Under the pieces are notes generated by a model. That model had not been told where the DNA came from. It made no database searches and worked only from the letters and a program-made list of their open reading frames with translations. Below, piece by piece: positions 929 through 28,639 of a stretch of 47,535 nucleotides of DNA; the first letter of the stretch is position 1, and each line of letters starts with the position of its first letter. The stretch lies in assembly GCA_003336485.1 (NCBI GenBank), contig QENH01000191.1, positions 1 to 47,535 on the forward strand. The letters are read 5' to 3'. Position numbers and translations under genes: made by a program. Source of the DNA: Candidatus Methanophagales archaeon. Lineage in GTDB: Archaea > Halobacteriota > Syntropharchaeia > Alkanophagales > Methanospirareceae.

Positions 929-1213
929 TTAGATTCCCCCAGGAAATGCACAATTAGGACAGACATACCCAAGCTTAACTTCCCCTTCGCAGCTCACTTC
1001 TCGCCACTTATTCATTTCTGCCAGTACGCTAGGAGATACATGTGCATCTGTCGTCTCGATCCACTTGCCACAGATCATGCACTCTATCCCGCATCTTTGC
1101 CTTCTCGCTAATCGCAGCAATAAATCATCCCATGTCTCAGCCCTCTTTTTTGTCTTTAGCTCTTCCACGGTCGCCCACTTCAGTGTCAATGTCCTCTTTT
1201 CTTCCTCAGCCAT
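929..1213 (-). CDS. Small zinc-ribbon-type protein
   Basis: The 94-residue protein has four regularly placed metal-binding cysteines: CMIC (about residues 46-49) and, after a HVSP stretch, CPNC (about residues 86-89). This suggests one zinc ribbon preceded by an amphipathic, charged N-terminal helix (about residues 8-42). No family is recognised. The 5' flank contains an AT-rich CAGTATAATACTT stretch about 15 bases before the ATG, which fits a TATA-like promoter and a short leader. The gene lies about 120 bp outside the left inverted repeat of the neighbouring element, so it is likely host sequence. A role in nucleic-acid binding is only a guess. Confidence 0.6.
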   Translation of the reverse strand: MAEEEKRTLTLKWATVEELKTKKRAETWDDLLLRLARRQRCGIECMICGKWIETTDAHVSPSVLAEMNKWREVSCEGEVKLGYVCPNCAFPGGI

Positions 1214-1334
1214 TTTTCAGCATCAAGTATTATACTGGTTTTGTAGTATATGAAGTTTTGTCGTTGCACCGTAAGATTTCGGAGTTGTTGCAGATCCGCC
1301 AGGCGTTAGGCGCTACTCACGCGAGCCTGTGCTT

Positions 1335-1490
1335 GAGGCCTCAACTTAGCAAAGATCATGGCCCGCTTAAAGCGAATTTATGTCGTTTTACTCAATATAA
1401 CCAAGTTTATTTTAGAGAGATAAAACGCCCTAAATCCATTTTAATCGCCAGGGGGCACATCCCCCTGGACCTCCCTGACATCATACAGGA
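1335..1490 (+). repeat. Left arm of ~155-bp inverted repeat
   Basis: Read on the plus strand this arm matches the reverse complement of 5591-5748 at roughly nine bases in ten, with a 2-base indel near the inner end. Both arms carry the same 8-bp-stem hairpin, here CCAGGGGG-CACAT-CCCCCTGG at 1448-1468. Just inside the arm (1500-1550) are further short GC hairpins such as AGCGCTTCGCGCT. Confidence 0.85.
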
Positions 1491-1692
1491 AGGGGTTATA
1501 ATAGCGCTTCGCGCTCTTTCGCTATTCAAAAACGCGATTGAAAATCGCACATAAAGTTTAGGTTGAACTACCGACTAAAACTTACACCAAAAAGAGAAAG
1601 GAACGAGACAGAGAAAAGGAAAGGGGGAATAAAGATTCCCGGATTACCCAAAAGGATAAAGGGGGCACCGCCTTCTTCCATAGCTATACAAA

Positions 1693-1748
1693 TGTGTAAT
1701 CATACAAAAAGGCAAACAGGTGAGCTGATCCAGCTCAGAAATTACACA
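1693..1748. other. Nested palindrome upstream of the element's gene run
   Basis: Outer arms TGTGTAAT (1693-1700) and ATTACACA (1741-1748) enclose a perfect inner hairpin, TGAGCTG (1721-1727), loop ATC, CAGCTCA (1731-1737). Nested dyads in a non-coding leader are typical of replication-initiator, nicking or recombinase sites, or of a dimeric operator. Which of these applies cannot be decided from sequence. Confidence 0.55.
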
Positions 1749-1830
1749 AAAGGGTAATTTTGGTAGTTCACAAAAACAATCATATGTATAGTTTTGCATA
1801 AAGTATTTAGATAAGTTAAAACCGAAAAAC

Positions 1831-1850
1831 ATATATATAGTATAATACTA
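1831..1850 (+). promoter_or_regulatory. Probable promoter of the element operon
   Basis: ATATATATAGTATAATAC is the most TATA-like stretch in the 650-bp leader (1491-2146) before the first gene of the run. Start of transcription about 25 bases further would leave a leader of about 290 bases, which contains short purine-rich sequence but no convincing gene. Confidence 0.45.
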
Positions 1851-2146
1851 TATTAGTAGTAGGGAAGAACAATAAAGCGACAGCGAAATGAGCGCCTTTG
1901 TGGCTAAGGGCGTGATGTAGGGAGCGAAGAAGACAACGGGACGAAAATCAGTTACTGCCTTAATGTTATGATTGCAAGCATGTGATAAGTACGAGACAGA
2001 AAACAAAGGGAGGAAACAATCAGACAGAGAAACGCGAAGTTTTTGGGTAGCCGCCTGGAAAAGATGGTTTTATTTTTTAACCTGCAGGGCAGTATCACCC
2101 TTGGAAGGTTACCAAATAGTATAAAGAAAATTGGAGGAAAAAAAGA

Positions 2147-2323
2147 ATGTTTGGACGCATACTTAGTTCCTCCGTGTACACATATGTATGCGGAGTATAT
2201 AAAGGTAGTGGCGAAACGCTTGGCAACATCGCCGCACAGGCTCGAATATTCGAGTCAGATATGAACGCCTGGTATGAAGAATTAGATAGAATAGAAGCGG
2301 AGGATCTGATAAATGACCGATGA
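2147..2323 (+). CDS. Small protein, first gene of the element operon
   Basis: This 58-residue frame begins MFGRILSSSVYTYV after a good ribosome site (TTGGAGGAAA, 8-14 bases upstream). It ends at a TGA inside the start of the next gene (ATGACCGATGA), a typical translational coupling. The N-terminal half is weakly hydrophobic and the C-terminal half acidic and helical (NAWYEELDRIEAEDL). I do not recognise it. The ribosome site, the overlap and the position at the head of a tight gene run support it as a real gene. Confidence 0.6.
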   Translation: MFGRILSSSVYTYVCGVYKGSGETLGNIAAQARIFESDMNAWYEELDRIEAEDLINDR

Positions 2324-2867
2324 TTTAACGGATAAAGACCCTTTCGCAGATGCTGAAGAAGTAAACGAGGAAAATTTAATTAGTCCCGCAATGGTAAAAA
2401 AAGTAACCTATCATATCCATAAGCTTGCAGAGCAGAAAGGGAAGGAATACAAAGACATCCAAAAAAAATGTAGGAGCATCTTTCAATATACCAACCTTGC
2501 AAAAGTGAGCAAGGAGCAGGGGCACGCAATAATAAACAAATTGATCGAATTGACGGGCGGAGAAGAGGAAAAGCCACAACTTCCGACAAAACCGGACGAT
2601 GGACTTAAAAACAAAGGCGCAAGAGTAACCGATGATGGGACCAAGTCCAAAAAGATAGAGGAACCAAAGAGCGAAGAAAAAGAGATTGTTGCGCCAGACG
2701 ATGACACCGTAACCGGGACCATGAGGGAAGCAATACGGGCGGCTGTTGACATCACCATTAAAGAAGTTGTAGATAAAGATGTGCCAGTGCAAGGCCTCGG
2801 GGGGTTCGTCCTGGAAATTGGGAAAGTCATTTTTGATGCGAAAATGGAAGAGGGGGCGAGCGAATAA
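2313..2867 (+). CDS. Element protein with phage-recombinase-type helical N-terminal region
   Basis: The protein has 184 residues. Residues about 22-78 (ISPAMVKKVTYHIHKLAEQK ... VSKEQGHAIINKLIEL) resemble the small helical module often found at the C-terminus of phage single-strand annealing or ssDNA-related proteins, where a 'Q-A-xx-LI-xx-L' helix ends the unit. The middle (about 85-130) is low-complexity, acidic and lysine-rich. The C-terminal 50 residues form a separate small domain with VDITIKEVV and GLGGFVLEIGKVI. Start and stop touch both neighbours (overlap of 11 bases before, none after), so it belongs to the operon. The functional suggestion, a DNA-metabolism accessory protein, is inference. 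Confidence 0.6.
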   Translation: MTDDLTDKDPFADAEEVNEENLISPAMVKKVTYHIHKLAEQKGKEYKDIQKKCRSIFQYTNLAKVSKEQGHAIINKLIELTGGEEEKPQLPTKPDDGLKNKGARVTDDGTKSKKIEEPKSEEKEIVAPDDDTVTGTMREAIRAAVDITIKEVVDKDVPVQGLGGFVLEIGKVIFDAKMEEGASE

Positions 2868-3089
2868 ATGGCAACTAACGGCATGATACCGCATATAGTG
2901 AAGAAAGAACAGGCGGGACTTATTGAACTTCGACAAGGGCGGGTTGCCCTTTCTTTCGCGTATAAGGTCGCCGGCAACCTTTGGAATGTTGTTTCCCATG
3001 ATTGCCTTTCTTTCTTCTCAGAAACAAGAAGCGAGGACCTGGAAAATTATCTCTTTGAAGCAGCGAGCGCAGAATTAGGAGGCGGGTAA
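2868..3089 (+). CDS. Small element protein, unknown function
   Basis: The 73-residue protein starts directly after the TAA of the upstream gene (TAAATG) and is followed after one base by the next start codon. It begins MATN, as does the next small protein, but the rest differs. One moderately hydrophobic stretch (RVALSFAYKVAGNLWNVV) is followed by an acidic C-terminus. There are no motifs I recognise. Coupling within the operon is the main evidence for it. Confidence 0.55.
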   Translation: MATNGMIPHIVKKEQAGLIELRQGRVALSFAYKVAGNLWNVVSHDCLSFFSETRSEDLENYLFEAASAELGGG

Positions 3090-3090
3090 A

Positions 3091-3183
3091 ATGGCAACCA
3101 ACCGATTTAAAGGGGAATATGTACCGACACAAAGCGAAGCGCAGGGGATTCTAGCGCCTATGAGCTGGAGGCGATGGCAATGA
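3091..3183 (+). CDS. 30-residue coupled small protein
   Basis: The frame starts at an ATG one base after the previous stop, with AGGAGGCGGG as ribosome site. It ends at a TGA that overlaps the ATGGCAATGA start region of the ArdC-like gene. It starts MATNRFKGEYVPTQ and ends in a basic and aromatic MSWRRWQ tail. It may be a genuine microprotein or a leader that couples translation of the next gene. No homology is recognised. Confidence 0.4.
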   Translation: MATNRFKGEYVPTQSEAQGILAPMSWRRWQ

Positions 3184-4025
3184 AAAACGAAGAAGTCAAA
3201 GCAGCTATAAAAAGAGTTATTCAAACCTTGCGGACCGGGGACATCGAAAAAATTGCATACGCTGTCTTTAAAGCTGAAACGGGCCGCCCTTCTGATTCCT
3301 GGAGTTTCTTAAACAGGCTTATGATGTTTTGTTCCGAAACTGGAGATGCACGAGGAATCCGGCAATGGAACCGGGTCGGGCGACGTCTAAAAAAGGACAC
3401 AAAGGCGCTTTATATTCGAGTCCCTGCTATGGTGAAAACCGGGGCAAAACGCACGAATGAGAAAGGCGAAGAGGAGGAGCATACGAGGCGAGTTTACAAA
3501 AACATCCCGGTTTACAGAGTCGAGGATACACACGGGGCACCGCTCGAAGAGGATAAATTTAAGCTCGAAATTCCCGCGAACCTTGCGCAAGTTGCGGAGG
3601 GGCTCGGACTTGAGATCAAAGCGAAACGATACACCGGGAACGAGTTCGGTTATTTCAGCGCATCAAGAAAAGAAATTGCTTTGATGTCGCCGGACCTAAA
3701 GATTTTTCTTCACGAGCTCGCCCATGGCGCCGATAACAAAATGCATGGTAGGCTCAAAGGGGGACAGCAACCAGATCAGGAGATCGTAGCAGAGTTGGCG
3801 GCGGAGGTTGTCGGGTATTTGTTGGGCCAAAAGCTCAACGGCAAAGGCCGCAACTACATCGAGAGTTATAGTGGCGGGTCCTGGAAGCCTGTTTTCGCGC
3901 TCCTGGACCGGGTACAAAAAGTAGTATCATATATCGTAGATAAGGCGCAGATTAAGGAGGGGGCGGCACCCCCTCATATTTCTGCACATGTCGGGATCTC
4001 GGGAGGAGTTCCGGCAACAGCATAA
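3174..4025 (+). CDS. ArdC-like antirestriction / ssDNA-binding metallopeptidase
   Basis: The 283-residue protein matches the two-domain plan of ArdC. The N-terminal ssDNA-binding region contains PSDSWSFLNRL (about 38-48), DARGIRQWNRVGRRLKKDT (about 57-75) and a strand rich in I-P-V-Y. The C-terminal zincin-like peptidase has the HELAHGAD zinc site (about 180-187) and a downstream Glu-rich helix (EIVAELAAEVVGYLLG) able to supply the third ligand. In conjugative plasmids ArdC protects incoming DNA from host restriction; the same role here is inferred. The first ATG (3174) overlaps the upstream stop; a second ATG at 3180 is also possible. It is the clearest sign that this segment is a transferable element. 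Confidence 0.8.
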   Translation: MAMKNEEVKAAIKRVIQTLRTGDIEKIAYAVFKAETGRPSDSWSFLNRLMMFCSETGDARGIRQWNRVGRRLKKDTKALYIRVPAMVKTGAKRTNEKGEEEEHTRRVYKNIPVYRVEDTHGAPLEEDKFKLEIPANLAQVAEGLGLEIKAKRYTGNEFGYFSASRKEIALMSPDLKIFLHELAHGADNKMHGRLKGGQQPDQEIVAELAAEVVGYLLGQKLNGKGRNYIESYSGGSWKPVFALLDRVQKVVSYIVDKAQIKEGAAPPHISAHVGISGGVPATA

Positions 4026-4044
4026 AAAAGGAGGCGAGCAAAGA

Positions 4045-4329
4045 ATGAGCGAAAGGAAAAGCTATATCGTGTATCCCTATGGCGCACATAGCTGGGAAGA
4101 GATTGCGGAGACCGTCGAACTCCTCAAATACGAAGGGGCAAACCCGAAAATCGTGAAACATAACGGGTTCTGGAACGTAGAGGCCGAAAGCAAGGCGGTA
4201 AAACCAACATTTGGGCCACAGAGACCACCAAATGATTTTAGGATTTTTAAAGGCACGCCTACAGAGTTTTTTCAAAAGGCAGCAAATGACCTGAAAAAAC
4301 AGGAAAGAGGGGGAAGGCCAGATGAATAA
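4045..4329 (+). CDS. Small element protein, unknown function
   Basis: A longer frame opens at 3988, but the ATG at 4045 has a clear ribosome site (GGAGGCGAGC) 8-15 bases upstream and lies 19 bases after the ArdC-like stop, so it is preferred. The 94-residue product begins MSERKSYIVYPYGAHSWEEI, with a predicted beta-alpha-beta core (YIVYPYG, AETVELLKYEG, PKIVKHNGFWNVEA). This recalls small phage proteins of ferredoxin-like fold. The tail is basic. It overlaps the next gene by 8 bases. No function can be assigned. Confidence 0.6.
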   Translation: MSERKSYIVYPYGAHSWEEIAETVELLKYEGANPKIVKHNGFWNVEAESKAVKPTFGPQRPPNDFRIFKGTPTEFFQKAANDLKKQERGGRPDE

Positions 4330-4777
4330 AGCAACAGGGGCACCCGCCCCCCCTTTCCTTAACAAGATCTGGAGCGATAAGAAAGCTATCGAATGCGCCG
4401 CCATCCTGGATGCAGGCCACCCTACCCATGCACAGCGGTTATGGCTTGTCGGATTCCTGAAATTTGCGGGCTATTCCATGGCCGATGTCCTGGACCTCAT
4501 CCGCGAACATTGCGAATGGCGCGACTACAACGACCAGATAACACGCTACCAAGTCGGAACCGTATTCCGGCAGCGGCCCCAACTGACCCAAAGCCAGATA
4601 ACCCGGAAAGTGAGGAAGTGGGATCTCTCACCTGTTGAGGTCCTACGCATCCGACGACAACGAGCCATCAACCTCTCAAAGCTGCTTCGTGAAGAGAGTA
4701 GAGGCCATGAGTTCCCGCATCCTGAAAGACTCATATGTGCTGACTTCAACCCGTCGGCTTCGTTCCTGCAGAAGTAG
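4322..4777 (+). CDS. Primase large-subunit C-terminal-domain-like mini protein
   Basis: The 151-residue protein shows the signature of the iron-sulfur C-terminal domain of archaeal/eukaryal primase large subunit (PriL). It has a first Cys (ECAAIL, about residue 24), then the helix HAQRLWLVGFLKFAG (about 39-53), DVLDLIREH and DYNDQITRYQV (about 70-80). The TRYQV box follows the aspartate-rich loop, as in PriL. Further Cys residues occur at HCEW and LICADF. A standard PriL cluster needs four cysteines and only three are evident, so cluster binding is uncertain. No catalytic primase subunit is encoded nearby; it could recruit the host PriS or act as a replication initiator. Last gene of the operon, followed by a T-rich terminator. 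Confidence 0.55.
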   Translation: MNKATGAPAPPFLNKIWSDKKAIECAAILDAGHPTHAQRLWLVGFLKFAGYSMADVLDLIREHCEWRDYNDQITRYQVGTVFRQRPQLTQSQITRKVRKWDLSPVEVLRIRRQRAINLSKLLREESRGHEFPHPERLICADFNPSASFLQK

Positions 4778-4790
4778 GACGGGGGCCATC

Positions 4791-4805
4791 TTTTTTTCAT
4801 TTTTT
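4791..4805 (+). terminator. T-rich transcription terminator of the element operon
   Basis: Thirteen bases after the last stop codon of the run come a stretch of seven T and then, after CA, five or more T, preceded by GC-rich GACGGGGGCC. Poly-T tracts are the usual archaeal termination signal. Confidence 0.55.
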
Positions 4806-4920
4806 AAAATCGTCCCAATATCTCCAAACTTTATTTTGATATTCTGTGAAGATCTCCGCCGTGAGGTCTCGTTTTGACGTAGAATATCAATTTACCATCC
4901 TCGCTTCACTCGCCCAAGCC

Positions 4921-5035
4921 TAATGATGTGAAGTTTGAGGTCTGACCCGCCCACCCCGATTATAGCAATAATGATTGTTTTCCAGGGGAGTGCCTCCCCA
5001 AGATACAATTACTATTGCTACTCGTCACATCATTA
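4921..5035. other. Large nested inverted repeat (115 nt)
   Basis: Perfect 11-bp outer arms, TAATGATGTGA (4921-4931) and TCACATCATTA (5025-5035), enclose a long imperfect hairpin from TAGCAATA (4963) to TATTGCTA (ending 5020). Its loop region is GGGGAGTGCCTCCCC. About 23 of 28 inner positions pair. It lies in an otherwise empty 800-bp zone between the operon terminator and the right arm. It could be an origin/nicking hairpin, a structured RNA, or a palindromic insertion. The sequence after it (5036-5345) is strongly pyrimidine-rich and contains no convincing gene; a small CACTG...CAGTG hairpin is at 5170-5185. Confidence 0.6.
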
Positions 5036-5368
5036 CCTCTTCATCTTTCTCATCCAGTTCCTTTGTCTTCACTTACGACCATCACGCCTACGCTAATTTC
5101 TCCCTCTCTCTCGATGATTTACTATTATCTCTGTTTTCTTCGCTCCTACAACTTCTCCTTTTCTGATTTCACTGTTTCGTCAGTGTGAGAAAATAAGCCC
5201 CGGGAAAATAAAAGCGCGAAGCGGTTTTATGTCTCTCATTCCTCAGGCCATTAACTCCTTTTTGCTCATTCTGACCTCACACTCTCTACTATTTCTTATT
5301 CTTATCCTTATCCCTATTTTTATTCCTTTTCCTATTCACAAATTAAATCATTTTTTTCTGCACATGTA

Positions 5369-5544
5369 AAATAGCGATTTATGACGATTCTATCGAAGAA
5401 TCCCCCTAAATCGCTCTTTTACCATCTGCGTTATTTCATCTCGCTACAGCACCGTCATTCGCTATGCGTTATGCGTTAATATTATACTGAAAAATAGCGA
5501 TTTATGACGCCTCTATCGAAGAATACGCCCTAAATCGCTCTTTT
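5369..5544 (+). repeat. Two ~52-bp direct repeats, each a palindrome
   Basis: Copies at 5369-5420 and 5492-5544 share AAATAGCGATTTATGACG, then CTATCGAAGAAT, then CCCTAAATCGCTCTTTT. Within each copy AGCGATTTA pairs with TAAATCGCT, giving a 9-bp stem with a variable loop. They lie just inside the right terminal arm, so they may be binding sites for a recombinase or replication protein, or paired terminators. Confidence 0.7.
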
Positions 5545-5590
5545 CCCTTGTATTAACTTTTTAACGCTGATCCCCTCGCTCTATCCTCAT

Positions 5591-5748
5591 CCTGCATATG
5601 ATGTCAGGGAGGTCCAGGGGGATGTGCCCCCTGGCGATTAAAACGGATTTAGGACGTTTTAGCTCTCTAAAATAAACTTGGTGATATTGAGTAAAACGGC
5701 ATAAATTCGCTTTAAGCGGGTCGTGATCTTTCATAGAGTTGAGGCCTC
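5591..5748 (-). repeat. Right arm of ~155-bp inverted repeat
   Basis: This is the reverse complement of 1335-1490 at roughly nine bases in ten. The internal hairpin is CCAGGGGG (5614-5621), ATGTG, CCCCCTGG (5627-5634). Similarity ends at GAGGCCTC (5741-5748). Confidence 0.85.
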
Positions 5749-6857
5749 TACAAGGTTGGGGTGAAAGAGTTAATGCATCTACGAGGTTAGAGCAATTCGA
5801 TGTTTACTCTAATTAGTTGTTCGTTCACTTTGTTGAATAAGCATAGTTTTTTTTCGGAGCTCGAGTCAGGACCTTTTTGAGACAAAAGCTTTTATGTGAT
5901 CATCATGATGGTTTTTACAGATAGGCAAGTTGCATGTTAAACACGGACGCTTGGCGGATTGAAATAATTTTTGAAATTTGATAGATACTACTTGTCTGTC
6001 TTTTCCATAAGCAAGCACGGAGGGGCCGCCGACGATAGGCGGCTCCACTTCCCCTATTTCAAAGGATATATATTCTTGCTGACTTACATCCTTAACATTT
6101 CATGCGCTCCAGTTCCATCTCGGAACTTCGTTCCCAAATTCCACCTCCGCTTACAATTTGGGGGCCGCAAGACTCAACACTCGCTCCGCGGCGCTGCACT
6201 CCCTTTTGAGACTTGCTTTCTTCTTACAACTCGTCAATACCAACTACTTCGAGAAATATAGAAATATCAAAGATCCTGAGATAGAATATTAGCACGTATA
6301 GCGCTTTACTTAATTCAACTTGAAAATCGGCTACGCCGACTCTTCGAGCCCTTCGGGTTTTCAAATTAAATTAAGTACGCTTCATATTTCATGCGGATAA
6401 ATACAACCCGAAATCAAACCTTCCGCAAGCTCCAGGTTTGATCAAGCCCTTCGGGTTCGGATTGCATTTATCCTTCGTTGCTTAGTTAAAATGTAGACAA
6501 AAATCCAAGATAAATAAGAGAGTTATTAAGAAAGGGAAAATTTAAAGAATTTGTGATGAGTTTGATAAAAGAGGTTTCAAGTCATGGCGCAGGTTAAGCT
6601 ATGCCCAAAACGCGCCTTTGAGTTTATACACATGTGTATTTCTCGCTGCTGCTTCTTCGACTTCCCCCTGGTAATCTCTGCTGCCTTTGAATTTGAAGAT
6701 AAATTGCATAGCTTTGCATATTAACCCACCACACTAGGAATATCACAACCGCCAGCCCGCATACTATCGCCAATAAGCCAATAAAAAAAAATCAGAAAAC
6801 TTTATATAGTGTAACTTATCTAAACATAAATCACAAAAAAGATAAAGGGGTATAACT
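5749..6857. other. Hairpin-rich intergenic region without a clear gene
   Basis: No convincing gene lies in these 1.1 kb. Several palindromes do: GCCGCC-gacgata-GGCGGC near 6027; ACTTAATT (6308-6315) with AATTAAGT (6369-6376), plus inner TTGAAAA/TTTTCAA; and GGATAAAT (6395-6402) with ATTTATCC (6466-6473), plus inner ATCAAACCT (6413-6421) and AGGTTTGAT (6434-6442). On the minus strand 6624-6788 an open frame without a start codon encodes one hydrophobic helix and a basic tail (IGLLAIVCGLAVVIFLVWW). This may be the remains of a membrane protein gene. Confidence 0.5.
6801..6809 (+). promoter_or_regulatory. TATA box of the ABC transporter operon
   Basis: TTTATATAG lies 49-57 bases before the ATG of the binding-protein gene and is preceded by an A-rich stretch. 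It is a good match to archaeal TATA boxes and would give a leader of about 25-30 bases containing AAAGGGG as a ribosome site. Confidence 0.6.
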
Positions 6858-17468: not shown

Positions 17469-18254
17469 ATGAAAGCACATGTAATCGAAAAGATCCTCAA
17501 TTGGCTTTTCCTTTTAATAGGCATTTTACTAACAGGTTCTGCTGGTGTATTATCATATGGACAATTTTCATTCCTGCTTTTGTTTATTATTATTATTTTA
17601 GGTATTTCCTTTTTGATAATAGCAGTATGGCGGATCATCGGTGCTGTTAGGATAAAATATACACCGTCAGAAGGCGAAAACTGGAAAATAGGAATGGAAA
17701 TGATTGAAAAAATGAATTCAGATTGGAGGGGGTACGATATCTCATCGTATAAAAATAGGAAAGACTTTGAAGATGTTTTTTTGGAAAAAGCTACCTCATG
17801 CAGATTCAATAGAATAATTGCTTGTGATCCAAAAAAAGACGTAAGCACAAAAGATTGGATAGAGACAATTTTAGATCCTGCAAAAGACACAGATAATCGT
17901 TACAAAAATTTCAGAAGAGCCATAAAGGATGATAAAATGAAAATTTTACATTTGCCTCATCAGGTATATGCCGATTTTTTTATAATCGAAAATGAAAAAA
18001 GGCATAAGGGTGAGGTTATTTTTGGTTTTCCGAAAACTTTAGCGGATCACACTTATCAAGCAGGTATGTATATTAAAAAAAATGAGATTGCAGTAGACTT
18101 TAACAAATTTTTTACCGATACAATCTTTAAATTATGTGAGCAACATTTACGAGATGAGGAAAATAAAGATGTTGATCGGTGTGAAATTTGCAAAAAATTT
18201 GATCACAAAAGAGACTTTACATCATTACTACCTAAAGAGGAAAAGGAAAAATGA
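17469..18254 (+). CDS. Two-TM protein coupled to histidine decarboxylase homologue
   Basis: The 261-residue protein has two membrane helices (about 10-30 and 36-58) followed by a soluble domain. Visible elements are FEDVFLEKATSCRFNRIIAC (about 98-117), KDWIETILDP (about 126-135), FRRAIKDDKMKIL and a strand-turn DFFIIENEKRHKGEVIFGFP (about 173-192). A CEIC pair occurs near the C-terminus (about 240). The order of elements is like that of the protein at 8013-9023, which also stands directly before a histidine-enzyme gene. The TGA stop overlaps the ATG of the next gene (ATGA), so the two are translationally coupled. I know no family for it; a membrane sensor or anchor for the enzyme is an inference. 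Confidence 0.6.
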   Translation: MKAHVIEKILNWLFLLIGILLTGSAGVLSYGQFSFLLLFIIIILGISFLIIAVWRIIGAVRIKYTPSEGENWKIGMEMIEKMNSDWRGYDISSYKNRKDFEDVFLEKATSCRFNRIIACDPKKDVSTKDWIETILDPAKDTDNRYKNFRRAIKDDKMKILHLPHQVYADFFIIENEKRHKGEVIFGFPKTLADHTYQAGMYIKKNEIAVDFNKFFTDTIFKLCEQHLRDEENKDVDRCEICKKFDHKRDFTSLLPKEEKEK

Positions 18255-19120
18255 ATAAAAACGAGTTTATACGAGGTATTGTAGGACGTTATGGAAAATA
18301 TTGTGATGGTTTCGCTTTAAGTAATTGGGCATATGTCACAGCAGTCACGGTACACACAAACATAGTGGATCATCATCTTTCGTTATCAAAATTAGTAGAT
18401 CCATCAAAACTCTATCAAATAAATGCTTTCGATTTGGCCGAAGTATCAGGACCATATATGGGGCAAATTAATATGATTACAGTATCCTCTTTTTCAGGGC
18501 CTAATGGTTTTATTTGGGGATATGACTTAGCAAAAAATGAAGATTTAGATGCTTTTAAAAAAGAACCACTTCTCACACTAACCAACAATCGGGATGATAA
18601 AAATAAAATACTTGTATATTCTGCCTCTCCATTAATAGCAGCGTCTTATGAACTATTTGGAACTGAAAAGGAAAAACATTTCCCATTGTATCCCGGTTCT
18701 CACGTACCATGCGTAAATTCGTTTTATCATAGTATGCCAAAAGATAAATATGTATTTAGTGCTATTGGAATTGGGATTGTCGAAGATAGAACCAAAAACA
18801 CAGATTTATTTATGCAATACGCAGACGGCATAAAAGAAAGTATAAATGAAGATGAAGCAAAAGTAGAGATTATTAAAGCTTTAGCAGAAAGTGTTATTGA
18901 AGTTGGAAGAAATCAAAGACTAAAATACAAAGAGATATATGTCGAAGTAGAAATTAAAAAAATACCCAATAATAAATACGCTTGTGCATTTACCGCTATC
19001 CCTTACCTTTTGTTGGCAAAAGATGCTATTCCTAACCAAAAAGTAGAAATTTTATCTACGTTGTCATTATCTAAATGGAAGGACCTAGTACAAGATAGAT
19101 TTTTGAAGTATAGTAAATAA
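18251..19120 (+). CDS. Pyruvoyl-dependent histidine decarboxylase family protein
   Basis: The 289-residue protein aligns along its length with the Lactobacillus 30a proenzyme as I remember it. The core is YMGQINMITVSSFSGPNG (69-86), where Ser79-Ser80 matches the Ser81-Ser82 autocleavage site. Asp61 and Glu64 match Asp63 and Glu66 of the substrate pocket, and Phe60 replaces Tyr62. The block FGTEKEKHFPLYPGSHVPC (136-154) and the helix VFSAIGIGIVEDRTKN (168-183) are also shared. At F187-M188-Q189 the family has F-V-E, so the catalytic Glu197 is replaced by Gln. Self-cleavage to a pyruvoyl enzyme is plausible, but histamine formation is doubtful. It may act on another amino acid or serve in signalling or conflict. 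Coupled to the two-TM gene. Confidence 0.8.
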   Translation: MNKNEFIRGIVGRYGKYCDGFALSNWAYVTAVTVHTNIVDHHLSLSKLVDPSKLYQINAFDLAEVSGPYMGQINMITVSSFSGPNGFIWGYDLAKNEDLDAFKKEPLLTLTNNRDDKNKILVYSASPLIAASYELFGTEKEKHFPLYPGSHVPCVNSFYHSMPKDKYVFSAIGIGIVEDRTKNTDLFMQYADGIKESINEDEAKVEIIKALAESVIEVGRNQRLKYKEIYVEVEIKKIPNNKYACAFTAIPYLLLAKDAIPNQKVEILSTLSLSKWKDLVQDRFLKYSK

Positions 19121-19529
19121 CGTCTCAAGAATAATATGACTTCCGTATGTAACTCTTCGCTCCGAGGCTTTCTAATGGGTTCGGACAACAGCGGACATGC
19201 AGCTGCGTTTCGCTTTGCTCAAAACCCTTCCCTCTGGAGTGTGCTCCGTAGGTCTGCAATACTTTATACGTAAAACACTTGAAATAAGAGATCAACAAAA
19301 TAAAACAAATACCCATTCTACGGCTCGTGGATGCCCCTCAATTCAGGAGGGGGTCTCACAATTCAAAATCCCAGTTAAAAAAATCAGATAAGGTTTTATA
19401 ACCAAAAATAAGCATTCATTTTCGCAAGATATCTAATTATGGGACAAGCTCTTCATTGTGGGGTCGTGTCTATGCCTCGTATTCTAATCTGTCTGATGGT
19501 TAAAATTCCTCCTGTGGCTGTGTTTACCC

Positions 19530-24294: not shown

Positions 24295-25539
24295 TTATAA
24301 ACTCGACAGAAAGATCGAATTTTTGTGATTGTGTACGGTCTCTCCAATATCATAGCCAAATTTATTAATCTCTCTCACCTTCAAATTTTCGTCTTTATAA
24401 CAGACTATGAGCGTTTGTTTCCACGTTTCAATGGTTGCCCAGACATATTCGCCGGTATATCCCTTGCCTACCTTGAAATACTCATTGAGTACGCTAATAT
24501 TACCCAAGGAATCAACCTCACGGATAAAATGGATTTCCCCTGTGACCAAGGGTAAGCGGTCCACATCGATTGTAAAATCTTTTGGCAGTATGCGTTTAGG
24601 ATCGACCGACTTCAGATCCTCATTTCTCAACTTCCAAGCATTAAATTTGTTTTCGGTTTCAAAGAAAATCTTTGACTTTTTCCGTATATCTTTCAGATCA
24701 ATAAATAGTTCCTTTTGCCAGAAGCGTTTATCAAAACCTTTATTGAATTCCTCTATCGTTCCGTTCATCCAGGGCTTTGACGGTGCGATGAACACCACTT
24801 CGATCCCTATACATAAAGCCAATCTCACGAAGCGACTGAATGACTTAGGATGCTTGTAGTCGCCTGCAAAACACATACCGTTGTCTACCTGTAAGTATTT
24901 GGGTATCGGAGACTGTTTCCAGTAATCCAGGAGAAATCCCATTACATTATCCATGCTTTTTTCGTTATACTGCTGTCCTGCAACTTGTCGCCCAACAACA
25001 TCTTTGAGGTGTAGCGAGTTGATCGGTCCATAACCCTTGATATGCCTCGGACCAACGTAATCTATCTGATGCAGCTCATCGATGCGTTTTGGTTTGAGTA
25101 TGGTATGTCTGCCTTTGGAATGGACTCGTTTGTAGCGTTCCCGTTTGTTCACCTTCAATTTATTCCGCTTTATGATTCGTTTGATAGTGGAAATAGAAGG
25201 GATCTCCGATGTTTTGTAACCCAGCCCATCCATATGGAACTGGATAGCCTCTGCACCCACACAGGAATATTTTGTAGAATCTTCAGTACCGTCCATTAGT
25301 GATTTTCTGCTCTTTACAACAATCTGCTCAATCCGTTCACTGGTTTTATGAGGTATAACTCTGGCTCTTTCTGGCAGGTCCTTATACCATCCTTTGCGTC
25401 TAGTTTTATATCTACCCAACCATTTGTTGAACCAACCCTTTGATCGCTCCAAACTTTTGTATATATCAACCTTTCGCTCGCCTTCAAGATACCGCTGAAT
25501 TGCTTTAATTCGTTCTTCCTCTTCTGGTGTATGTTCCAT
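24295..25539 (-). CDS. DDE/rve-type transposase
   Basis: The 414-residue protein has an N-terminal helix-turn-helix region (about 5-45, IKAIQRYLEGERKVDIYKSL) and a second HTH-like part (about 100-130). The rve-type catalytic core has HQIDYVG (first Asp, about 159), LQVDNGMCF (second Asp, about 218) and GTIEEFNKGF (Glu, about 263). This is the D, D35-45, E spacing of retroviral-integrase-like transposases. A beta-rich C-terminal domain follows. Length is normal and no frameshift is seen, so the element may be active. The family is close to IS481/IS3-like single-ORF types, but the exact group is uncertain. Confidence 0.85.
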   Translation of the reverse strand: MEHTPEEEERIKAIQRYLEGERKVDIYKSLERSKGWFNKWLGRYKTRRKGWYKDLPERARVIPHKTSERIEQIVVKSRKSLMDGTEDSTKYSCVGAEAIQFHMDGLGYKTSEIPSISTIKRIIKRNKLKVNKRERYKRVHSKGRHTILKPKRIDELHQIDYVGPRHIKGYGPINSLHLKDVVGRQVAGQQYNEKSMDNVMGFLLDYWKQSPIPKYLQVDNGMCFAGDYKHPKSFSRFVRLALCIGIEVVFIAPSKPWMNGTIEEFNKGFDKRFWQKELFIDLKDIRKKSKIFFETENKFNAWKLRNEDLKSVDPKRILPKDFTIDVDRLPLVTGEIHFIREVDSLGNISVLNEYFKVGKGYTGEYVWATIETWKQTLIVCYKDENLKVREINKFGYDIGETVHNHKNSIFLSSL

Positions 25540-26091: not shown

Positions 26092-26277
26092 ATGGGCGAA
26101 GAAGAGAAAAAGAAAGGTTTTGCGATGGTTTCCTTTGAAATCCCACCAAAACTAAGCGAAGACCTTCGGCGATTACTCGACGCGGGCTATTACGCTTCTC
26201 GGTCAGAAGCGATACGAGACATGCTACGAAAAGGGATTGATGAAATTGGGAGAAGGGAGGAGGAGCAAAAAGAATGA
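26092..26277 (+). CDS. CopG/NikR-type ribbon-helix-helix regulator
   Basis: The ATG at 26092 is chosen (GAGGTGAC 6-13 bases before it) instead of the GTG two codons upstream. The 61-residue protein is a bare RHH fold: FAMVSFEIPPKLSEDLRRLL (strand and first helix, about 10-29), then YYASRSEAIRDMLRKGI (second helix, about 34-50) and a charged tail. It should dimerise and bind an operator, perhaps the palindrome just upstream. Its stop overlaps the ATG of the next gene (ATGA). Confidence 0.8.
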   Translation: MGEEEKKKGFAMVSFEIPPKLSEDLRRLLDAGYYASRSEAIRDMLRKGIDEIGRREEEQKE

Positions 26278-27245
26278 CTCAAGCAAAAAAGACGGTTGTA
26301 GATTTAGACGATTCCTCTACAAAAGACACGGAGGAAACCAAAGAGCTTAAAGATTCCATTGAGGAAAAGAAAACAGAAGCTGAAGCGAAGGAGGAGCTCA
26401 GCGAGGAAGAAGAGATCGAACGGGATAAGAAAATTCTGGAAGCTTTGGGGTTTATAAAAAAGGAGAACGGCGAGAAGATACAGTATAAACTCAACGAGGG
26501 CGATATAATTATCGGATGTTCATTCACCCCACATTATCCAAAAGGGATAGTCTGGGCAAAAAAGAACGGTACCGATGCTTTGTTCCCTGATGAAGAAGTA
26601 AAAGACCTGCCTGTTATAAAACGGTTCTACAACATAAGAGAAGGAAAAGAGCAAATGCCTGAACTCAAAATCGCCCAATCGCAGCAACAGTTTCTTTTAC
26701 AATTGCCTGGGAAAGAAAAACAGACCTTAATCAAAGATTTGCACTATTATGAGCGCGATGGTAAAATGATCCTTGGTAAAGAGGGCGAATTAAAACTCGC
26801 CGCTCAGGCAGAGAATAGGGTAAATACCGAAATATTACTGGAGGAAATCGAGCCTTCAAAGTCCGCTCCTTCTTCTATCTATATCAGAATGCGTGGCTGG
26901 GTGAAGAAAGATGACGAAATAATTTGGGAATCCGTTGAAGAAAATAATTGGGATTACGGGCTGGAAACCGAGCGATATCTCATAAAACAACTTGGAAAAG
27001 GTAAAATTACTGAGAATGACGTTGTAAGAGAAGAGGATGGTTGTATTCACCCTGAACCAGAGCTATGGATCAAAATCAGGTCTTACCTCGCGGATAAACA
27101 AAAATATGCACTACGAACGATAATAGGTGAGACAAAAAGGCGACTTTGGGGTGAATTCCTAGGTATCACGCAGAGCACTGAGGCGGAGCTTAGAATAGAG
27201 CGTGAAGAGTTTGAAAATATCGCACAGAAAAATAAGGCAGAATAG
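26274..27245 (+). CDS. Unknown protein of the tRNA-Thr-linked element
   Basis: The 323-residue protein has an acidic, low-complexity N-terminus (about 1-55, rich in E and K) and then a folded domain of about 265 residues. Visible stretches are EGDIIIGCSFTPHYPKGIVW (about 75-94), SIYIRMRGWVKKDDEIIWES (about 202-221) and a final helix region YALRTIIGETKRRLWGEFLGI (about 279-299). A beta-sheet followed by a basic helix near a small residue pattern recalls single-strand annealing proteins, but this is weak. It is coupled to the RHH gene and lies upstream of the integrase on the opposite strand. No family recognised. Confidence 0.55.
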   Translation: MTQAKKTVVDLDDSSTKDTEETKELKDSIEEKKTEAEAKEELSEEEEIERDKKILEALGFIKKENGEKIQYKLNEGDIIIGCSFTPHYPKGIVWAKKNGTDALFPDEEVKDLPVIKRFYNIREGKEQMPELKIAQSQQQFLLQLPGKEKQTLIKDLHYYERDGKMILGKEGELKLAAQAENRVNTEILLEEIEPSKSAPSSIYIRMRGWVKKDDEIIWESVEENNWDYGLETERYLIKQLGKGKITENDVVREEDGCIHPEPELWIKIRSYLADKQKYALRTIIGETKRRLWGEFLGITQSTEAELRIEREEFENIAQKNKAE

Positions 27246-27330
27246 ACGCTGCTGGTAAAAGTTTGGAGAGGGTATAGGTGATGGAGTCTTTGACAATATC
27301 ATCTTACACTCATTTCGTCAATCGTTACCT

Positions 27331-28524
27331 TTAAGTACCGGTAACTTTCTCGCCTACCTTTCTATCGGTTCGTTCCAAAAAAGTTTTCATATAGTCTATT
27401 ACTCTTGTGTCCTCTTTTATCAACTCAAAGAATTGCATCATCACTTGCATATTTTTCTCCTCTTGCTCTATCACTGTGCTCAAACCCAACGCCATCCCAC
27501 ATCTATGACAAAACTTAGACGTTGGTGCATTTTCCGTGCCGCATCGCACGCAGTTTTTCTTCACTAACTTTGTTCTCTCTTTCGCTTCTTCTATTTCCTC
27601 TCCTTGTAGCTTCAGCAGTGCTGCATCAACATCCCTACCGCTGAGATGCACATAGATTGATGGCATCTTTGAGCCTTGCACCCAACCAAGATACTGATCC
27701 ATTTGCGCTTCTGTGAGATGCTTTGATAGGTGTGTTGAACGGCTGTGCCTGAAATTATGTGGGTTAACCTTCTTTTTTATAGCTGCTTTTTCTGCTACTC
27801 GTTGCAGAAGAGCTCGGAATGCAGAATAATTCATCGCTTCTCCTTTGCCTACCGTGCCCACGCCGATCCAAAGGGGTGCTTTGGGATTGTCTCTACCAGG
27901 ATGAATATCTAACCATGAAGCGAGATATACTGCTGAGAAAATCAGTCTCACTCTTCTCATACCTGTCTTTCCACTTACTATCGCTACTGCACCATAATTA
28001 TCAAATGATATATCGCTTATCTTCAGATTGCCTATTTCTGAGATTCGACAGCCTGATTCATATAACCCTGCAAGAAACGCTTTGTCACGTGGATGCTCGG
28101 CAACTTCTATCAATTTCATTACTTCGTCTTCTGTTAGTAACTCATCCGGTAACTTATTCCCGCCCCTGTATGTTGTCCTTATCCACGATACCTCGTTGTC
28201 CTTCCCGAGAAAAACTAAGAGTTTCTTTAAAGCTAACTTATAGTCATGTTTCGTCCAGTCGCCAATTTTATCTTCCAGCTCTATTTTGCTGACAATTTCT
28301 ACAACCTCTCCTTTCTTCATATCTTCAAAATTCAATGTACCACAGTATCTTTCTGCGATCAACCGCAATGTCCGGAGGTACTTATCTAATCTTGCCTCCT
28401 TCAATCCGTCAGCAGAGCATTGTAATATAAAAGCTCGAATTGCATCTTTGTTCTTTTCCGATAGGTTTGATTCTTCAAGTGCCCCTCTTGCTTTCTCCAG
28501 CCGCTTCTTGAAATCATGTATCAT
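27331..28524 (-). CDS. Tyrosine recombinase (integrase) with C-terminal zinc ribbon
   Basis: The 397-residue protein has a SAM-like core-binding domain (about 1-120). The catalytic domain has ESGCRISEI (Arg), SGKTGMRR (Lys), HNFRHSRSTHL (H-x-x-R), YLGW (W in place of the second His, common in archaea) and SIYVHLSG (nucleophile Tyr, about 304). After it come a zinc ribbon, CVRCG ... CHRCG (about 336-354), and a coiled tail, an arrangement typical of archaeal Xer/integrases. The N-terminus faces tRNA-Thr 43 bases away, so the tRNA gene is the likely attachment site. Promoter sequence must lie in that gap. Confidence 0.9.
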   Translation of the reverse strand: MIHDFKKRLEKARGALEESNLSEKNKDAIRAFILQCSADGLKEARLDKYLRTLRLIAERYCGTLNFEDMKKGEVVEIVSKIELEDKIGDWTKHDYKLALKKLLVFLGKDNEVSWIRTTYRGGNKLPDELLTEDEVMKLIEVAEHPRDKAFLAGLYESGCRISEIGNLKISDISFDNYGAVAIVSGKTGMRRVRLIFSAVYLASWLDIHPGRDNPKAPLWIGVGTVGKGEAMNYSAFRALLQRVAEKAAIKKKVNPHNFRHSRSTHLSKHLTEAQMDQYLGWVQGSKMPSIYVHLSGRDVDAALLKLQGEEIEEAKERTKLVKKNCVRCGTENAPTSKFCHRCGMALGLSTVIEQEEKNMQVMMQFFELIKEDTRVIDYMKTFLERTDRKVGEKVTGT

Positions 28525-28567
28525 AATAAGTTATATGGAAAAACGAGGCTTTAAAGTTAACGTACAA

Positions 28568-28639
28568 AGCCGCTGGTGGGATTTGAACCCACGACCTGCT
28601 GATTACGAATCAGCCGCTCTACCCCTAAGCCACAGCGGC
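28568..28639 (-). tRNA. tRNA-Thr (anticodon CGT)
   Basis: The 72-base cloverleaf has acceptor GCCGCTG/CAGCGGC and anticodon stem GCTGA/TCAGC with loop TTCGTAA (anticodon CGT, reading ACG). The T arm is GTGGG-TTCAAAT-CCCAC and the discriminator base is T. The CCA end is not encoded. Its 3' end points towards the integrase gene. No second copy of the 3' part of this tRNA was found by eye elsewhere in the window, so the other border of the integrated element is not located. Confidence 0.95.

Follow-up and report, generated by a model that had tools for sequence, protein, structure and literature searches.

The described systems closest to the locus considered here are the virus ANMV-1 (KP703175; Paul et al. 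2015, PMC4372165), the anti-restriction protein ArdC of plasmid R388 (PMC7213743), and the C-terminal domain of the primase large subunit PriL together with the PriX and PriCT domains; primases of mobile elements are often accompanied by domains akin to this C-terminal one (PMC5862659). In this paper we analyse a stretch of 47,535 bp (the window), which is the complete contig C11 (QENH01000191.1) of a 3.18-Mb, 93.6% complete genome of a Candidatus Methanophagales archaeon, and within it a block at about 930-5770 that holds a single operon between two long inverted repeats, the arms. The original prediction had taken the arms to delimit a discrete, undescribed mobile unit. We consider it likely that the block, taken as a whole, is a segment of an ANMV-1-related tailed virus situated in the chromosome of the archaeon that hosts this virus, probably an ANME-1 (anaerobic methanotrophic) archaeon; the link to ANMV-1 and how large the order is point to such a host.

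The genes for a Zn-ribbon-like CxxC protein, a 58-amino-acid (aa) protein, ORF184 and a PriL-like protein are collinear with ANMV-1 between 19.3 and 14.5 kb, and a short hairpin of ANMV-1 (13.79-13.83 kb) comes after the PriL-like gene in the same place as in the window. The Zn-ribbon-like protein (94 aa) is encoded at 929-1213 on the minus strand, outside the left arm, and has homologues at the same relative place in ANMV-1 (19070-19330) and in a second contig of the same genome, C89. The co-directional operon, all on the plus strand, occupies the middle between the arms (2147-4777), as had been predicted. It begins with the 58-aa gene (2147-2323), which is homologous to ANMV-1 17640-17491, and with ORF184 (2313-2867), a conserved viral protein 86% identical in aa to that of C89. 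Among 50,697 phage records, ANMV-1 was the sole match both of ORF184 (63% over 42%) and of the PriL-like protein (4322-4777; 66% over 99%). Most operon genes are homologous to genes of a described virus, so the claim of an undescribed element is not supported.

A second line of evidence comes from G020:C195, a virus contig from a genome of the same archaeal family (DAOUYX010000031.1, under the name Methanosarcinales archaeon isolate CSMAG_938), which carries the 58-aa gene region, ORF184, a gene that is internally deleted in the window, and a PriL-like gene 70% identical to that of the window. The PriL-like gene is followed at 45 bp by an arm (2972-3118, 75% identical over 155) that has the orientation of the window's right arm, and then by TerS, TerL, portal and DNA ligase genes. 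These last four genes distinguish C195 from the window, as does its lack of an ArdC-like gene, and on its left side it is truncated by the contig end. In one IMG/VR virus the PriL-like gene is likewise followed by TBP-like, TerS and TerL genes. Because of the collinearity with ANMV-1, the terminase and portal genes of C195 and the gene order of the IMG/VR virus, the operon is, as judged from sequence comparison, a module of tailed archaeal viruses.

In a self-BLAST of the whole window the arms form its strongest repeat (1335-1498 on the plus strand and 5582-5748 on the minus strand; 91% over 167 columns, E 4e-60), far above chance, and their ungapped core (1351-1485 and 5597-5731) is 95% complementary over 135 nt, which is close to the 155-bp near-identical repeats first described. 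The left arm is made of a long-loop hairpin A (1376-1435) and a hairpin B (1448-1468); the right arm, inverted relative to the left, has hairpin B at 5614-5634 and long-loop hairpin A at 5647-5706. Hairpin B of the window is CCAGGGGG-CACAT-CCCCCTGG, and each long-loop hairpin A, that of the C195 arm included, adjoins a hairpin B; hairpin B is also present at the right side of C89. Two short-loop copies of hairpin A lie on the plus strand at 5366-5422 and 5488-5548, the second being close to the hairpins of C89 and ANMV-1. The short-loop form thus occurs in the window, in C89 and in ANMV-1, and the long-loop form in both window arms and in the arm of C195; of these sequences, ANMV-1 has no counterpart of the two long-loop arms. 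All arms and hairpins share the core ATTTATnnCG...CGnCCTAAAT (with one substitution in the first short-loop copy, hp1), and even the strand-to-strand mismatches are conserved.

The predicted internal hairpins are real: compared with shuffled sequences, folding gave z -5.8 for 5355-5430, z -3.7 for 5480-5556 and z -3.5 to -4.0 for the arms. At five positions two-sided changes preserve pairing among the three arms, a small but consistent set of sequences. When the window is compared with ANMV-1, identity is about 90% in hairpin A and 75% in the PriL-like gene. The palindromes seen at the outer arm ends are there (the 8-bp GAGGCCTC, at both), but they are not kept in the related arm of C195. The full arm is found at only two places in the host genome and at one further place, that of C195, among 53 genomes of the order; it is therefore not a high-copy dispersed repeat. 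Apart from the pieces in the right region of C89, no further hairpins or related arms were found in 51-53 genomes of the order or in IMG/VR.

To the left of the left arm the homology with C89 and ANMV-1 is clear, extending over the Zn-ribbon gene, and on the right the outer edge of the arm and its flank (5738-5770) match C89 weakly (82% over 34, E 0.006), with the match running beyond the outer end of the arm. Because homology continues past the left arm and, weakly, past the right one, the arms are, by the same kind of evidence, hairpin units internal to the module and doubled in opposite orientation, not the ends of an element. They would represent two opposed copies of a virus cis-element (hairpin A plus hairpin B) kept beside the operon. 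The virus segment would then consist of the Zn-ribbon gene, a divergent early operon (58-aa gene, ORF184, ArdC-like and PriL-like genes) and a hairpin-rich noncoding region after the operon.

In contig C89 the module stands in host-type surroundings. C89 shares with the window the Zn-ribbon gene (about 71% in nt), ORF184 (87%), the ArdC-like gene (73%), a noncoding right region (84-96%) and the short hairpin A, but it has no arm pair, no detectable PriL-like gene, and extra genes including one for a phage-type PHROG_98 protein. The PHROG_98 match (L007 of C89, 9290-9745; E 3e-19) adjoins the Zn-ribbon gene and is absent from the window. Synonymous divergence between the two copies is 0.34 in ORF184, 1.8 in the ArdC-like gene and 2.2 in the Zn-ribbon gene, and since it is so unequal between blocks, the copies in the window and in C89 are mosaics. 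At its left edge the block meets a repeat that is dispersed in the genus (806-925), which the copies in C11 and C89 join at the same internal point. This noncoding repeat also occurs in contigs C52, C77, C164 and C89 and in genomes G027 and G028. Integration into the repeat was considered, the cut point being shared by both copies, but was set aside because the missing repeat half was not found. The genes flanking the block have no orthologues in relatives.

The chromosomal segment is probably a decaying remnant, as an in-frame deletion in one gene and the failure to find a terminase in the genome suggest. At 3091-3183 there is what remains of a viral gene of 132-140 aa from which about 100 codons have been lost internally, so that its two ends now form one continuous reading frame (MATNRFKGE/YVPTQSEAQGILAPMSWRRWQ); C89, C195 and ANMV-1 each have the whole gene. 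An intact ANMV-1-like provirus was rejected, as the early operon is there in the shared order but searches of the host genome for a terminase gave nothing (TerL by protein and by PHROG family) and no structural genes, which ANMV-1 has, were noticed among the window ORFs. Several observations weigh against the virus-segment interpretation. The surviving genes have low ratios of nonsynonymous to synonymous divergence between the window and C89 (dN/dS 0.09-0.23; Zn-ribbon gene 0.13), possibly a result of selection acting either in the viruses or in the host. The two chromosomal copies cover nearly the same part of the virus genome and join the repeat at one common point, which exceeds what random decay would lead one to expect. 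A tblastn search of ANMV-1 with the ArdC-like protein gave no match, so that gene content is mosaic.

The genes for ArdC-like and primase-like proteins that the original prediction had named were both recovered. The ArdC-like protein (3174-4025) matches a PHROG anti-restriction family (E 1.3e-7). It is similar in length to ArdC of R388, and in both proteins the metalloprotease motif HExxH lies in the C-terminal half (HELAH at residue 180). Unlike R388 ArdC, it scores below the curated Pfam cut-off for the N-terminal domain (ArdcN, E 0.0044, 17.7 bits; cut-off 22.6), so that it was not assigned to the ArdC family by that domain; it has no sequence match in PDB, and its structure model is unusable (predicted local distance difference test score, pLDDT, 39). 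No relatives of this protein, of ORF184 or of the deleted gene were found in IMG/VR. As this weak family match suggests, the ArdC-like protein may shield the incoming genome from restriction on infection.

The PriL-like protein resembles the PriL C-terminal, PriX and PriCT domains in being a helical domain with motifs of the host PriL; the profile aligns it with the host PriL at H..R...FL...G.S..EV and at TRYQV (TxYQV) and ends before the Fe-S cysteines. In contrast to PriL it is encoded by a stand-alone gene and lacks these cysteines, and its PF04104 match (E 0.0039, 17.0 bits) is below the cut-off of 22.4, so that membership of the DNA primase large subunit family was rejected. The weak fold matches of its model (pLDDT 75), all with E above 1, include PriX, PriL C-terminal domains and the photolyase fold. 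With such family and fold matches, it may help to prime replication. In another genome of the genus a PriL-like fragment lies next to the gene of a reverse transcriptase that shares 27% identity with the enzyme of the ANMV-1 diversity-generating retroelement (L061, G028:C189, 1593-2953); this is possibly another remnant of the ANMV-1 type. Two further operon genes, of 73 aa (2868-3089) and 94 aa (4045-4329), have no family match (significant match for the latter) in Pfam or PHROGs.

The conserved hairpins could serve as an origin of replication, or part of one, or as a protein-binding control site. An origin is suggested because the gene with a putative role in replication initiation adjoins the conserved noncoding hairpin region, and we propose it tentatively, as a possibility worth serious attention. 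The GC skew of ANMV-1 has turning points near 11-15 kb and near 26 kb; as it tracks gene direction, it is not decisive. The main alternative to the origin role keeps the virus segment but supposes that the hairpins function in the transcript, whether as processed or protective 3' structures or as regulatory RNA, and not as an origin or binding site in DNA. RNA would also give two-sided changes that keep pairing, the hairpins are intergenic and lie at both ends of a transcription unit, and the noncoding block 4824-5185 also folds well on the minus strand, into a predicted long stem-loop (z -2.9). This block matches L007:2802-3167 of C89 at 84%, the neighbouring ArdC-like gene being less conserved. 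On the other hand, in both C11 (about 4787-4806) and C195 a T-rich run of the archaeal termination type directly follows the PriL-like gene and precedes the arm, the arm can point either way with respect to the operon, and there was no Rfam match, the noncoding block included. We regard a function as RNA as rather unlikely.

The finding of nearly the same slice twice with the same repeat junction leaves room for another account of the block, namely a small satellite or integrative plasmid, resident in the host chromosome and devoid of structural genes, that has its hairpins and early operon in common with viruses of the ANMV-1 type and is moved by a helper or host recombinase. It would fit two copies of nearly equal extent in one genome that has no TerL of this type, the meeting of both with the repeat 806-925 at one internal point, and genes under purifying selection. 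It is opposed by the lack of an integrase in the C11 block, with none evident among the C89 ORFs, of which few were profiled; by the absence of any att repeat or target-site duplication at the block ends, the missing half of the repeat not being at the other side; and by the internal deletion of one gene and the lack of the PriL-like gene in C89. We hold this account to be unlikely. That the block is a discrete mobile element ending at the arms is very improbable and largely contradicted, for despite the strong similarity of the arms, their terminal palindromes and the one operon inside, genes and sequence are shared beyond them, C89 and ANMV-1 have the module without the arm pair, the arm of C195 lies inside a virus genome, the ends show no duplication, and no other copy of the unit 1335-5748 occurs in the host genome or in the 53 genomes of the order.

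As the original prediction stated, the sequence between the arms has no recombinase or transposase family that Pfam or PHROGs profiles could detect, and no standard mobile class fits. An insertion sequence, transposon or miniature inverted-repeat transposable element was rejected for want of an internal transposase, multi-copy terminal repeats and target-site duplication, and an integron for want of an integrase family between the arms and of any array of repeats. A linear virus or plasmid with inverted terminal repeats does not agree with arms that are internal in a 47.5-kb contig and only 91% identical, nor inversion of the operon at the arms with an orientation to the Zn-ribbon gene that is the same in C11, C89 and ANMV-1.

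Elsewhere in the window, a tyrosine integrase gene (27331-28524) lies directly beside a tRNA-Thr gene (28568-28639). A larger provirus reaching to these genes at 27-28.6 kb was rejected, since there is no duplicate of the tRNA-Thr of at least 12 bp within the window and mostly cellular genes lie between. The region 26092-28639 is possibly a separate small integrated element; a 323-aa gene at 26274-27245 matches one of the genes of G019:C51, a virus-type contig, with 28% identity over 100 aa. The window also holds an rve-type transposase gene (24295-25539), with short repeats around GGTATACGATGGTGTGA on one side, and a gene of the pyruvoyl-dependent histidine/arginine decarboxylase type (18251-19120; PF02329, E 3e-45).

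If the block is a segment of an ANMV-1-related virus, viruses of this type, whose host has so far only been inferred, would be tied to the chromosomes of one archaeal family, and the short, highly conserved hairpin would offer a concrete candidate for the site at which replication of these uncultured viruses starts or is controlled. To our knowledge few virus-interference islands are known in methane-oxidising archaea. There is a slim chance that what we describe is a satellite of ANMV-1-like viruses not recognised before, or a decoy kept by the host: a chromosomal island, found twice in one genome, that bears the early operon and origin hairpins of the virus and competes with or parasitises an infecting virus; if this is true, it would be among those few.

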